IMG/VR virus record: IMGVR_UViG_3300050013_000074
Coordinates: 1 to 23,661 of that record
DNA from: a virus
DNA: 23,661 nucleotides
Reading direction: 5' to 3' (one strand)
Shown: positions 12,530 through 22,160 of the stretch, piece by piece
Layout: the number at the start of each line of letters is the position of its first letter
How positions within the stretch are numbered: position 1 is the stretch's first letter
The notes under the pieces: generated by a model
Told to the model about the DNA's origin: nothing
Databases searched by the model: none
What the model saw: only the letters and a program-made list of their open reading frames with translations
Program-made: the position numbers and the translations under genes

Positions 12530-12751
12530 CTACTCCTCTGCCTGCATAGCTTCAAACACAGATAGCGATCTCTGTTCTGCGTCGATACCTGAAAACTTTA
12601 TCTCGTCCGAGCCTCTATCCGAATCGAACTTTGTTCCATCTGCACGCTCAATGACTCGAATGTAATCTACGTCCGCCAGTCTATAAAATATCTTCCATAC
12701 GCCGTGGCGATAGTAGTCTTTTTCGCGCCGCAATTCTACGAACTTAATCAT
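12530..12751 (-). CDS. Hypothetical small protein
   Basis: This 73-residue protein begins MIKFVELRREKDYYRHGVWK. The ATG at 12751 overlaps the HNH-gene stop (ATGA), which makes it preferable to the GTG at 12763. The N-terminal 40 residues look like a small antiparallel sheet (IFYRLADVDYIRVIERADG), and the C-terminal part is acidic. No family is recognised. Confidence 0.6.
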   Translation of the reverse strand: MIKFVELRREKDYYRHGVWKIFYRLADVDYIRVIERADGTKFDSDRGSDEIKFSGIDAEQRSLSVFEAMQAEE

Positions 12752-13221
12752 CGTGGGCTCCACTTTCCGCCGATCACTAACCGGCGTCGAACATTCGTCT
12801 GAGACTCCGGTGACAGATGCGTATTCATAAAGTCCACTAAAGCCTGAAATTCTTTGCCTGTCAGAGTCGATTTGACCCAGTTACAACTCTGACAGCAGAA
12901 TACGATGTTGTTCAAACCCCAGCCGCCATGCCGCGAAACAGCCGTCGCATGATCCGGCGTGAGCGTCTTGACCGTCAACTTACACTCGCAATACCAGCAC
13001 GGCCCTCCTAAAGCCTTGGCAGCCCCCTCACGGAACTCCTCGAGGCTGTAAGACAACTTCGCCTTCGTTATATGAAAGAACTCACGCATGCGAGTCGTCT
13101 GCCCGTTGTAGATGCTCAACGTCCGCCGCATGAACGCAGACTGCTTCTGCTTACCGCGCATCTTCGCGCGCTCCTCCACTAAGAGCTTGTTGATCGCCGC
13201 CTTGGTCATCTTTACCGGCAT
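12748..13221 (-). CDS. HNH endonuclease with zinc-binding Cys pairs
   Basis: This 157-residue protein has an N-terminal basic helical region (residues 8-70) and a C-terminal HNH domain: C75-x2-C78 (CWYCEC), D90-H91 (LTPDHATAVSRHGG), N105 (GLNNIVFCC), C110-x2-C113 (CQSCNWVKS). H91 is the likely general base, and the two Cys pairs form the structural zinc site. HNH proteins in phages serve as homing endonucleases, packaging nucleases or host-genome nicking enzymes. This one is not inside a recognisable intron and is far from terL, so a free-standing homing nuclease is the leading guess. GGAG seven bases upstream supports the ATG at 13221; it overlaps the preceding gene by ten bases. Confidence 0.85.
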   Translation of the reverse strand: MPVKMTKAAINKLLVEERAKMRGKQKQSAFMRRTLSIYNGQTTRMREFFHITKAKLSYSLEEFREGAAKALGGPCWYCECKLTVKTLTPDHATAVSRHGGWGLNNIVFCCQSCNWVKSTLTGKEFQALVDFMNTHLSPESQTNVRRRLVIGGKWSPR

Positions 13222-13391
13222 GTCATATCTCCAGGATCGCGCCCCTCGATCCAAGCATACCTCGCGTTGGGCGTATTCGGAATCATGCCCGTCTCGGATA
13301 ACAGTTCCGATGCAATCCTAATCTTCAGAGCGTCCGATCCCATACGCGCATCCCGTAACAACGTCAAAAGATTTAGAACAGACTCCGTCAT
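13212..13391 (-). CDS. Hypothetical small protein
   Basis: This 59-residue protein begins MTESVLNLLTLLRDARMGSD. The ATG at 13391 overlaps the stop of the small HNH gene (ATGA). The first 35 residues look helical, followed by a Pro/Asn/Arg-rich end. It lies between two HNH genes. No motif is recognised. Confidence 0.55.
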   Translation of the reverse strand: MTESVLNLLTLLRDARMGSDALKIRIASELLSETGMIPNTPNARYAWIEGRDPGDMTCR

Positions 13392-13705: not shown

Positions 13706-13870
13706 TCACTCCTCCTCGAACGCAGTCCCATCTTCTGTCCGATGATAGACGCGCTTGGTGCAGCGTATCTTATCCAGCAGCTTCTGCTTCCTACGTCGAG
13801 ATGCCACACCGATACGCCGCACAAACCAGAGATACCAAAAGACTGTCAGTGCGATAACGATCAACTTCAT
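13706..13870 (-). CDS. Small single-pass membrane protein
   Basis: This 54-residue protein begins MKLIVIALTVFWYLWFVRRI, an N-terminal transmembrane helix followed by a basic stretch (ASRRRKQKLLDKIR) and an acidic tail. The positive-inside rule puts the C-terminus in the cytoplasm. The ATG at 13870 overlaps the glycosyltransferase stop (ATGA). Coupling to the sugar-transferase gene suggests a membrane partner, but this is inference. Confidence 0.6.
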   Translation of the reverse strand: MKLIVIALTVFWYLWFVRRIGVASRRRKQKLLDKIRCTKRVYHRTEDGTAFEEE

Positions 13871-14694
13871 ATCTTCAACTCCTTCATCACTAAGTCTCGC
13901 AACTGATCCGCTCTCACCCGAGCCGGCTGCATGTATATCAATGTAGTGGTTTTGCTCCACGTCGGCGCGATGAACGGGACTGACGATATCGGAGGCCACA
14001 AGATTAAAGTTTTACATCCCAAAGCCGATGCGATGTGGCCGATTCCGTTGTCAACCGTGATCACCGCAGTCGCACCTGACAGATTGAGAACCAGCTGTCG
14101 CAATGATTCAGTCGTAACCAACTTAACCGGCACACCCGTCCATACATCATTCAGGCCATGCGACACCACCACATCCAAATTCTTCGAGTGCAGCCATTCA
14201 ATCAACAGCCCCCAACGCTCAATGTCAGGCGTCTTGTTCGGCCTCATCCCCATCTGCCGAGAGCATGAACGGGAAAATGGCGATATCACCACATACGGAT
14301 GTACCTGAGACGGAATAGGCGGAAGACCCTTATCGCCCCAGCGCGCCCTCCAGTAAGTCAGCGGAGTGAAATCCCCCTGCCAGTTACTACTGTCCACGCC
14401 CATCATCTCTGCGTAGCATTCCGAAATGTGCAGATACGATCCGTAGCGCAACAAATGCGCCGTACACATCCTCGATGCAGCGCCGGCCGATAAATCAACG
14501 TCAACATGACCGAGCGTACTGACATCCACCACCCGCACCGGCGTACCGTCAAACTGACGTCGCACCATCTCGCCCGACATGTCGCTGCCGACGCCGACTA
14601 CGATCTCTCCCCCAGGCCGCTGCATGCGCAGGTCAGCGATCGGCTTCAGAGTGTAGATCGTGTCTCCGAGTAAATTTAGGTTCTTGATGATCAT
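13867..14694 (-). CDS. Glycosyltransferase family 9 (heptosyltransferase-like)
   Basis: This 275-residue protein resembles ADP-heptose-type GT9 enzymes. It starts with a short LLGDTIYTLKPIADL segment (residues 8-22) like the GD-x-(L/I) acceptor-side motif of heptosyltransferases. It carries VVISPFSRSCSRQM (135-148) and the hallmark VITVDNGIGHIASALG (211-226), equivalent to the D-S-G-x-x-H-L-A-A donor loop. It is shorter than LPS heptosyltransferases (about 320-350 residues). The likely reaction is transfer of a sugar from a nucleotide donor to an unknown phage or host acceptor. AGGA precedes the ATG at 14694. Confidence 0.85.
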   Translation of the reverse strand: MIIKNLNLLGDTIYTLKPIADLRMQRPGGEIVVGVGSDMSGEMVRRQFDGTPVRVVDVSTLGHVDVDLSAGAASRMCTAHLLRYGSYLHISECYAEMMGVDSSNWQGDFTPLTYWRARWGDKGLPPIPSQVHPYVVISPFSRSCSRQMGMRPNKTPDIERWGLLIEWLHSKNLDVVVSHGLNDVWTGVPVKLVTTESLRQLVLNLSGATAVITVDNGIGHIASALGCKTLILWPPISSVPFIAPTWSKTTTLIYMQPARVRADQLRDLVMKELKI

Positions 14695-20076: not shown

Positions 20077-20649
20077 TTATGTACCACTGGCGGCGGCTAG
20101 AAACAAGTTTTTCGTCCAATCGTTCCGAGCATCAGGAATCCCAGCACGATGACACTGAGCCGCCATCGTCGTGTAATTCTTGATGTCCACCGCAGCGTCA
20201 AACCGCGGATAAGCTCCTCTCAACTCCGCATCGCCAAGATTGTAGTCCATGTCGATCAATGCCAGCTTCACTCCGTCCGGCAAAGAATCGTAGTCTGGAT
20301 AATCCCTGCGCAGATCATTGTCAAACTGCGTCACCACTTCCCTCAACAGAGCATCGATGTCCACCTGAAGCAGGTAGACCGACATCAAAGCCTTGTATCC
20401 GCCGGCCGCGTATGCCTGACCAAACGGTAAGTGCTGTAAACGATTCCAGTCCGCCATGATCTGCTCCAGCGTCGCCGGCACATTCTCACACTGAAACGGA
20501 TGCGCTCCGTTCAACGTCACACATGCAGCCAAGCTGGGAATCATCTTCCCGACGCCAACCGTCACGTTTCCTCGCGTGTCCCGATAGAGCCAAGGAATCG
20601 ATCCCTCGAATACCTTCAACTGTCCGACTGCATCATCCAAGTAACTCAT
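20077..20649 (-). CDS. Phage lysozyme, GH24-like
   Basis: This 190-residue protein has the T4-lysozyme catalytic pattern: E15 in KVFEGSIPWLYRD, D24 and T30 in RDTRGNVTVGVGK, with the same 9- and 6-residue spacing as E11, D20 and T26 of T4 lysozyme. The C-terminal part contains VKLALIDMDYNLGD, the conserved helix of this fold. It would hydrolyse the glycan strands of peptidoglycan for host lysis or during DNA entry. No signal peptide is present, so a holin or tail delivery is required. The ATG at 20649 shares one base with the minor head gene stop (TGATG) and has GGGGGAG upstream. A longer start at 20682 is unlikely. Confidence 0.85.
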   Translation of the reverse strand: MSYLDDAVGQLKVFEGSIPWLYRDTRGNVTVGVGKMIPSLAACVTLNGAHPFQCENVPATLEQIMADWNRLQHLPFGQAYAAGGYKALMSVYLLQVDIDALLREVVTQFDNDLRRDYPDYDSLPDGVKLALIDMDYNLGDAELRGAYPRFDAAVDIKNYTTMAAQCHRAGIPDARNDWTKNLFLAAASGT

Positions 20650-22160
20650 CACTCCCCCGTTCGTGAAACTGAAAGAATGCATTCGCAGTTATGTGCTACA
20701 ATCGAACCTGCCAAGTACCAACCATTCCTAGTCTCGAGGTTATAAACATGCGAACTCCAATCTTCAACGACTCTGAGATGCGCCGGTTTCACAAAGCGCA
20801 TGCAAGAGGCGAGACAATCCAACACATCGCAGCGCGCCTCGGCGTATCCCGTACCGTCCTTCAATACGGATTCACGCGCATCTGTCTCCCTATCCGTAAC
20901 AGAAGTGACGCCCAGCGAATAACATGGGAGCGCAGATCTGAAACAGAACGCGAACACATGACCAAAGCCGCCCACGATGCGATACGCGGATCGAAACGCT
21001 CTGCCGATGAAGTCAGACAGCGCGCGCAGACCCATGAACGCACTCAGACTACCACGATCAAGTCGTCCTACGAAACCGAATTCAGTTCCTTCCTCAAGCT
21101 CCATAAGATGAAGTTCATCTGGCAGAAAGCTATCGACGTCTACAATATCGACTTCGTGGTCAACTCCCGCGTCGCCGTGGAACTCTTCGGCGGTGGATGG
21201 CACTCTCACCCGTCGCATATGCATCGTCATCTCCGCCGCACTAAAACAATCCTCGAAAGTGGACTCGATCTGCTTATCGTCTGGATTAATCCTCGCCGTC
21301 AGTCTCTTGAAAGCAGCTTCATCGATGCACTGCACCAGATCGTCTCCCTGCTGAAGCTCCACAGCACTAACCCATCCGCGCCTAGTCAATATCGGGTGAT
21401 TCGGAGTGCAAAGTATTTCCCCATATCCAGGGACATCAATGACAACGACTTTCCCGTGAAACCTCCTGCGATACATCCGAGACGTCCCCGAAGCAAGAAC
21501 CCCAACTGAACCTGCGAAACAATTCAAATGACCGAGCGGTGCGCTGTCGCCCGATGAGAATACTTCCTCCATCGGAATCGGCCCGTCGTCTTCATTCAAC
21601 GTACAGATTTCCTCGCACGGCGAATCGCCTAAACATATCCAGCTCTTCATCATGTCCTGCCCGTTCAACACCTGATGCATTCCGTCGTAGTACGCCTGCG
21701 CTGCTTCAAACCTTGCTGCACGCTCCGCCCGAGCTGAACTGAGAGCAAAGTCACTCGATGGATTCGCCTTCAGCCATCTCTTAGACGTCTTCAACATCTG
21801 ACCACTAACCAACTCCGCTCTTTGCTTCGCCAGAGACTCTGCTCGAGCAATCATTCGATTCCCAGGAGTACGACCGATCAAATGCCCCGCATCCTGATAA
21901 CCGCCGATCATCGATGCCCGAATCAATCGGGTCATTGATCCTACGATCGGTACGCCCGACTTCAAAGCTGTCGAAATCGTTCCTGTCTCCATTGCCAAAT
22001 CTACTGCGTCGAAATAATTACCTAATGCATGCGAAGCCATCGCAATATTCGGCCTCAACTTCTTCCAAGGTGAAAACAATAACAATGACAACATCGCCGC
22101 TCTTCGTTCGCGCCTCTTGCGCTTAGCGTCGTCTGAATCGGCATGCAGTCCACAGCACAT
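20649..22160 (-). CDS. MuF-type minor head protein interrupted by an intein
   Basis: The 503-residue precursor consists of an N-extein (1-213), an intein (214-491) and a C-extein (492-503). The exteins joined would make a 225-residue protein whose C-terminal part fits the phage Mu F / SPP1 gp7 head-morphogenesis family: an Ala-rich helix (RAERAARFEAAQAYYDGMHQ), KSWICLGDSPCEEIC (172-186), a Gly/Pro segment, then GHLN joined to CEC, equivalent to the family's HPNCRC ending. These proteins sit at the portal and help DNA delivery. GAGG six bases before the ATG at 22160 supports the start. Splicing is required for a complete motif, because the intein lies exactly between N213 and C492. Confidence 0.85.
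   Translation of the reverse strand: MCCGLHADSDDAKRKRRERRAAMLSLLLFSPWKKLRPNIAMASHALGNYFDAVDLAMETGTISTALKSGVPIVGSMTRLIRASMIGGYQDAGHLIGRTPGNRMIARAESLAKQRAELVSGQMLKTSKRWLKANPSSDFALSSARAERAARFEAAQAYYDGMHQVLNGQDMMKSWICLGDSPCEEICTLNEDDGPIPMEEVFSSGDSAPLGHLNCFAGSVGVLASGTSRMYRRRFHGKVVVIDVPGYGEILCTPNHPILTRRGWVSAVELQQGDDLVQCIDEAAFKRLTARINPDDKQIESTFEDCFSAAEMTMHMRRVRVPSTAEEFHGDAGVDHEVDIVDVDSFLPDELHLMELEEGTEFGFVGRLDRGSLSAFMGLRALSDFIGRAFRSAYRIVGGFGHVFAFCFRSALPCYSLGVTSVTDRETDARESVLKDGTGYAEARCDVLDCLASCMRFVKPAHLRVVEDWSSHVYNLETRNGWYLAGSIVAHNCECILSVSRTGE
20694..20702 (+). promoter_or_regulatory. Extended -10 promoter for the antisense nuclease gene
   Basis: TGC followed by TACAAT (20697-20702, five of six to consensus) forms an extended -10 element on the plus strand. 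Transcription would begin near 20709, leaving about 39 bases to the ATG at 20748. No good -35 box is visible, which extended -10 promoters tolerate. It lies just inside the intein boundary (20688), so the element carries its own promoter. Confidence 0.5.
20748..21509 (+). CDS. HTH + Vsr/DUF559-like nuclease, antisense inside the intein
   Basis: The ATG at 20748 has GAGG eight bases upstream and gives 253 residues; an ATG at 20691 in frame would add 19. The N-terminus carries a helix-turn-helix (GETIQHIAARLGVSRTVLQY, residues 21-40). The C-terminal half has the Vsr-like PD-(D/E)XK fold seen in EDxHD homing endonucleases and DUF559 proteins: a helix with E111 (YETEFSSFLKLHKMKFIW), D135 in VYNIDFVV, E145 in VAVELFGGGWH with H152, and the final helix-strand ILESGLDLLIVWI. 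The last acidic residue of EDxHD is not obvious, so activity is not assured. It lies entirely within the intein DNA and in exact codon register with it on the other strand. The probable role is to cut intein-free alleles of the minor head gene so that the intein is copied in. Confidence 0.8.
   Translation: MRTPIFNDSEMRRFHKAHARGETIQHIAARLGVSRTVLQYGFTRICLPIRNRSDAQRITWERRSETEREHMTKAAHDAIRGSKRSADEVRQRAQTHERTQTTTIKSSYETEFSSFLKLHKMKFIWQKAIDVYNIDFVVNSRVAVELFGGGWHSHPSHMHRHLRRTKTILESGLDLLIVWINPRRQSLESSFIDALHQIVSLLKLHSTNPSAPSQYRVIRSAKYFPISRDINDNDFPVKPPAIHPRRPRSKNPN

Follow-up and report, generated by a model that had tools for sequence, protein, structure and literature searches.

A stretch of viral DNA of 23,661 nucleotides (IMG/VR record IMGVR_UViG_3300050013_000074, positions 1 to 23,661; hereafter the window) carries an intein in a head protein gene on the minus strand and, opposite the intein, a long plus-strand reading frame. 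Is the plus frame a gene, and, if so, does its product mobilize the intein? The interpretation we favor, with a probability of about 0.9, is that the locus holds a mobile intein and that the strand opposite its linker encodes, in the same codon register, the intein's homing endonuclease; splicing, expression, and cleavage are inferred. Our data reveal two conserved products on opposite strands, selection that switches between the strands, conserved initiation signals, and a mobile distribution (Table 1 gives the features).

Table 1. Features of the intein locus and of the antisense nuclease gene, in window positions
Feature	Position	Strand	Basis
MuF-like head protein precursor, 503 aa, intein-interrupted	20649..22160	-	Sequence; Phage_Mu_F match in relatives of the gene
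N-extein, 213 aa, C terminus ...PLGHLN	21522..22160	-	Aligns to MuF exteins from residue 166 on
Intein, 278 aa, C214 to N491	20688..21521	-	Sequence, Pfam profile, Hint-fold model
Intein block A (Cys1)	21483..21521	-	C1 invariant in alignment A8
Intein block B (CTPNHP)	21381..21422	-	H42 invariant, T39 and N41 nearly so (A8)
Intein linker, sense codon position 1 fastest, largely disordered in sense model	20802..21341	-	Substitutions, model
Dual-coded motif, sense FHGD opposite nuclease V142-A-V-E145	21171..21182	-	Both frames conserved, antisense third bases frozen
Intein block F (HVYNLE; SHVYNLE in longer form), opposite nuclease SD and start codon	20733..20750	-	Sequence
Intein block G (LAGSIVAHN), opposite promoter -10	20688..20714	-	Sequence
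C-extein, 12 aa, CECILSVSRTGE, Cys+1	20652..20687	-	Sequence
Extended -10 promoter element TGCTACAAT of nuclease gene	20694..20702	+	Sequence; p=0.025 vs synonymous shuffles
Shine-Dalgarno (SD) GAGGT	20736..20740	+	Sequence; p=0.03 vs synonymous shuffles
Antisense EDxHD-type homing endonuclease gene (putative), 253 aa; ATG is complement of block-F His codon	20748..21509	+	Profile, fold
Helix-turn-helix (HTH), residues 24-44	20817..20879	+	Profile and model
EDxHD/Vsr/DUF559-like nuclease domain; E109, D135, E145, H152, R164	21054..21404	+	Alignment, model, profile
Disordered nuclease C-terminal tail, opposite intein blocks A-B	21417..21506	+	pLDDT <50 at 224-229 and 232-253

The minus-strand ORF is continuous from end to end and contains Cys1, TPNHP, SHVYNLE, and VAHN/C. 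A sequence-only reading of the window had described a contiguous intein with blocks A, B, F, and G that interrupts the GHLN/C junction of a MuF-like head gene. Both points were borne out: the precursor is a single ORF, the intein spans exactly the predicted interval, and it is inserted before the Cys of the junction. C1, H42, and N278/C279 are invariant across our intein alignment (A8). The Pfam profile Intein_splicing matched the window intein with E=1.8e-4 and 21.8 bits, under the curated cut-off of 35.8; it also matched 56 of 58 relatives (best 1.6e-16), with the intein of Escherichia phage Snoke above the cut-off. In an AF2 model, the N- and C-terminal parts had pLDDT >90 and formed a Hint fold at both ends, the middle (~residues 130-235) was mostly disordered, and the best PDB matches were inteins (probability 1.00). 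The Phage_Mu_F profile did not match the window gene itself but matched its relatives L002, L013, and L126, and the window extein could be aligned to MuF relatives from residue 166 on. Judged from its sequence, the minus frame encodes an intein that interrupts a MuF-like head gene.

The plus-strand product scored 22.8 bits against DUF559, above the Pfam cut-off of 20.6, and also matched HTH families, in agreement with the HTH and Vsr/DUF559-like motifs noticed earlier. MTES_1575 was matched by 56 of 70 nuclease relatives, and a profile of the 70 aligned relatives matched I-Bth0305I (PDB 3r3p), an EDxHD homing endonuclease of a group I intron (PMC3943268), with E=3.2e-6. A structure prediction without a nuclease fold would have refuted the proposed gene. 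Instead, the model (mean pLDDT 85) had 3r3p as its top Foldseek match (probability 1.00, TMt 0.66-0.68). Both the Foldseek and the sequence matches are remote, at 14-15% identity. Y132, D135, and E145 are invariant in the 70 sequences; within the catalytic set, E109, D135, and E145 are conserved, H152 mostly so, and the last position is R164 (equivalences made without superposition). By predicted fold and profile, the plus product is an HTH-plus-EDxHD nuclease. It resembles I-Bth0305I in its nuclease fold, its E/D/E/H core, and its extended DNA-binding N terminus, but that enzyme is intron-encoded on the sense strand, whereas the window nuclease is intein-associated and antisense.

The rule proposed for the two frames, n+i=491 for plus codon n (counted from 20691) and precursor residue i, is arithmetically exact. 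As the codon boundaries of both frames coincide, sense positions 1, 2, and 3 lie opposite antisense positions 3, 2, and 1. These coincident registers make it possible for the plus frame to be a mere shadow of a conserved sense linker, open through codon bias and similar to its homologs through sense conservation. Long antisense frames are indeed common in the window, as had been cautioned and as the ORF listing confirmed, and the sense FHGD motif is also conserved, both of which fit a shadow. At the window's own extein antisense-stop rate, the chance of a 243-codon overlap staying open is p ~4e-6, a rate that comes from only 222 extein codons, all that the window offers. Antisense-stop codons numbered 994 of 46,595 in exteins versus 0 of 27,935 in overlaps, a zero that in part follows from the requirement for open frames. 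The conservation evidence for the antisense frame is stronger than this openness statistic.

We determined which strand is selected by comparing substitutions at sense codon positions 1/2/3 in 15 non-overlapping pairs. The N-extein had 524/393/1070 substitutions and blocks A-B had 162/85/275; for the linker the counts were 1029/398/739, and for blocks F-G 52/32/115. Exteins and splicing blocks thus changed fastest at sense position 3, while the linker was reversed, changing fastest at sense position 1 (the antisense wobble position) in all 15 pairs and in five of five new pairs, or 20/20. Since a few pairs share a phage lineage, not all are fully independent. The sign of the bias switches at intein residues ~60 and ~240. 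At the dual-coded motif, 92 of the 94 four-fold codons for nuclease A143 have C as their third base, and 80 of 81 codons for V144 are GTG. Since the window's nearest relatives are only ~35-37% identical, selection in the window itself was read from residue conservation rather than codon positions; by this measure, HEN alignment scores were ~2-3x the sense-linker scores. Selection of the linker mainly on the antisense strand, and of the splicing blocks on the sense strand, is supported, as is the earlier claim that the linker is the complement of a live nuclease gene whose core lies opposite it.

Unless it is an artefact, the concentration of linker substitutions at sense position 1 in 20/20 pairs refutes a shadow origin of the plus frame. 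The same frame matches independent nuclease families as well as I-Bth0305I, a free-standing homolog contains 12 would-be sense stop codons, and the SD, ATG, and promoter occur more often than synonymous codon choice predicts (these last two points are described below). We regard a shadow as close to ruled out. Codon positions also bear on a second alternative, in which the intein has lost splicing, the head protein works in its fused form, and the nuclease alone is selected. The window's C-extein of only 12 residues and its Intein_splicing score under the Pfam cut-off would fit such a loss. However, Cys1, T-x-x-H, block F, and HN/C are all kept, the splicing blocks are under sense-strand selection with position 3 fastest, and the model has a Hint fold at both ends, all of which make loss of splicing very improbable. 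An intein with a live antisense nuclease, our preferred reading, would also have been refuted by homologous inteins in which the plus frame is broken and the linker conserved. Such cases were confined to two lineages (L041; L106/L107), each with one nonsense codon in the nuclease and the intein frame still open, as expected of a decaying homing gene or of the homing cycle.

To be expressed separately, the nuclease gene would need signals of its own. In the window, TGCTACAAT and GAGGT both lie upstream of the ATG at 20748. The extended -10 promoter and the ribosome site described by the sequence-only reading are present, but the window's promoter consists of the extended -10 only and was not picked up by a standard scan for two-hexamer promoters. 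In 73 of the ~85 loci listed, the nuclease start codon and the block-F His codon are reverse complements (CAT/CAC, giving ATG/GTG), and the typical sequence upstream of it is TTGGAGGTCATAAAC, opposite V-Y-D/N-L-Q. The window and Jersey types carry TGCTACAAT or TGCTATAAT opposite I-V/I-A. Relatives have TGCTATAAT or TTGACA-N17-TATAAT at the window's -10 position, and in many loci (e.g., L034, L039, and L089) TTGACA lies opposite the C-terminal S-S-N, with TATAAT 17 bases further. Promoter scores averaged 8.86, compared to 5.47 in synonymous-codon shuffles (Fisher 1e-28), and SD scores averaged 4.65, compared to 2.80 (Fisher 1e-6), although these combined values overstate significance because the loci are related. 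An SD, a start codon, and a sigma-70-like promoter are conserved and embedded opposite blocks F and G, which the sequence-only reading had missed.

Metagenomes, named earlier as a place to look for the same intein, contained it repeatedly. Nuclease-only searches of IMG/VR yielded 96 loci, ~90 of which have both splicing ends on one sense ORF and the nuclease antisense in register; of the remainder, five are truncated by contig ends and one has a frameshift. A tblastn search with the nuclease matched 121 phage records, and in all 15 of the intact records opened, not counting the window, the nuclease lies antisense inside the head-gene intein in the same register. Among a further 35 IMG/VR and 7 bacterial-genome loci (Chloroflexi, Firmicutes, Glycomyces, Aggregatibacter, a gammaproteobacterium, and Peregrinibacteria), all 40 held-out complete loci had this arrangement. 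Single-protein searches of viral contigs gave no matches; smaller alignments were usable as queries, and an 18-sequence alignment was too diverse. The window and every complete intact locus have an unbroken sense ORF, with no split-intein halves.

The commonest insertion site is HPN/C-R-C of MuF. A second MuF site, TSTT/C-RARDG, is occupied in Escherichia phage KMB36 (L126, OR525703.1, 772-2742), and the insertion in L148 (HN/C-WAMDG) may be at the same site. One 1706-codon sense ORF (L145/L147, 2-5119) contains two antisense-nuclease inteins, with ends HN/S and HN/C, and a further such intein resides in a dCMP deaminase gene of Virus Rctr197k (L129, KX853510.1, 1153-2505; PF00383, E=5e-11). 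The arrangement recurs in far more than 100 loci of phages and prophages, a breadth that the sequence-only reading had not noticed, and it appears to represent a little-noticed class of mobile element. KX853510.1 annotates the Rctr197k host gene as a head morphogenesis protein. Separately, Rhodococcus phage REQ3 (L127, NC_016654.1, 1164-2942) has a related intein and antisense nuclease ORF in which the first residue is apparently Ala, not Cys.

Evidence for mobility comes from relatives, not from the window. Gordonia phages Sedona and Vivi2 have proteins with 99.3% identical N-exteins and 97% identical C-exteins, and inteins at the same site that are only 35% identical. Empty sites occur in Jabberwocky (99% over the joined exteins) and in Escherichia virus fEg-Eco19 (98% to Snoke). 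The intein DNA of Snoke is 96% identical to that of Salmonella phage sam, whereas their N-extein DNA is only 69% identical. These empty sites and the incongruent distribution support homing, with cleavage itself inferred. We also looked for a co-conversion tract between Snoke and fEg-Eco19, but a drop in flank identity near the insertion was lost in a mosaic background (mostly 82-100%) over 6 kb.

The distribution is also what weighs on a third alternative, that the antisense nuclease is real but not homing and is instead a domesticated defence, exclusion, or antisense-regulatory gene sitting in the intein. EDxHD/Vsr folds are also known from repair and restriction enzymes, the head gene could be regulated by antisense transcription, and there are no cleavage data. 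Yet the gene is confined to inteins or directly adjoins the same target gene, its distribution is patchy with empty sites and incongruent hosts, and further insertion sites, including one in a dCMP deaminase, show the same arrangement. We consider a non-homing role improbable. The adjoining case is a free-standing homolog in Acinetobacter phage P1068 (L007, 2767-3660), which is convergent with an intein-free MuF gene, overlaps its end, and has 12 codons that would be sense stops. Searching with the P1068 nuclease revealed this form in only three identical Acinetobacter records (P1068 and two relatives). Its position suggests an origin in which a neighboring nuclease beside an intein-free MuF gene was later captured by the intein, and a route by which an independent nuclease and an intein may have come together.

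A model for the antisense homing element is as follows. The sense strand would be read with the late head gene to give a precursor from which the intein, to judge from its conserved blocks, splices itself out. The opposite strand, from its own promoter and ribosome site opposite blocks G and F, would yield a separate HTH-EDxHD nuclease, whose expression is inferred. As inferred from the empty sites and incongruent distribution, the nuclease would cut intein-free MuF genes of a co-infecting phage at the HPN/C codon junction, and repair of the cut would copy the element into the empty gene. The linker would be mostly a passive complement, kept free of stops. Separating the strands may allow an early nuclease and a late capsid gene, a possible escape of the homing enzyme from the late timing of its host gene.

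How does this element relate to known systems? Homing nucleases within inteins, EDxHD enzymes close to split inteins, and nucleases hidden on the same strand all have precedents. In canonical inteins (LAGLIDADG or HNH), the Hint splicing domain likewise accommodates a homing nuclease between blocks B and F; here, in contrast, the nuclease has its own signals on the other strand and forms no part of the spliced protein. Fractured genes in which an EDxHD nuclease lies between split-intein halves (Dassa et al., 2009, Nucleic Acids Res 37:2560, cited in PMC10448857 and PMC12350094) share the nuclease superfamily, the phage inteins, and the linker position of the nuclease, but here the intein is one contiguous frame that the nuclease overlaps antisense in codon register. 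The ShiLan element, an out-of-frame HNH in a phage methylase, similarly hides a nuclease gene in another frame of an in-frame insertion, and for this same-strand element it has been proposed that the fused protein is used unspliced and the nuclease alone is selected (PMC11855218). ShiLan lacks a splicing domain, whereas here one is present and the nuclease is of the EDxHD type. The annotated inteins of Snoke (MK931441) and of Jerseyvirus UPWr phages (PMC8425127) belong to the same intein family in the same gene; the antisense nuclease has no annotation there and no mention in the intein passages of PMC8425127.

Full-text literature searches, whose scope did not include the original EDxHD papers or the actinobacteriophage-intein preprint of Gosselin, Arsenault and Gogarten (2025; 'Non-Canonical Architecture'), revealed no prior report of antisense inteins. 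The Gordonia MuF inteins may be among those treated in that preprint. Antisense in-register encoding with signals opposite splicing blocks was likewise not found described, again with the 2025 preprint outside the search. We judge it slightly better than an even bet that the locus represents a widespread, undescribed class in which blocks G (with its neighbors) and F double as promoter and as SD plus start, placing a splicer and a separately timed homing enzyme on opposite strands. In such an element, the self-removal and the spreading of selfish DNA can be written on opposite strands of the same sequence, with splicing motifs facing gene-expression signals. The long antisense overlap, in which strand-specific selection is directly readable and switches sharply at domain borders, offers a test case for overlapping-gene evolution, and the relatives bring to light many nuclease genes that lack annotation in common phages (Jersey-type Salmonella, Gordonia, and Pseudomonas).

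Several additional observations were made. In the terminase of Vibrio phage 1.238.B (L130, MG592604.1, 2500-3590), an HNH-like ORF lies on the same strand between split Hint halves, as in a classical fractured gene. Elsewhere in the window, a small HNH-type ORF on the minus strand at 12748-13254 (HNH_5, E=8e-5, below cut-off) is possibly another mobile nuclease, and the minus-strand gene at 13867-14694 encodes a heptosyltransferase-like glycosyltransferase of family 9 (E=1.7e-7). Overlapping the end of the head gene, the minus-strand ORF at 20077-20682 has a weak match to Phage_lysozyme (E=0.0016).
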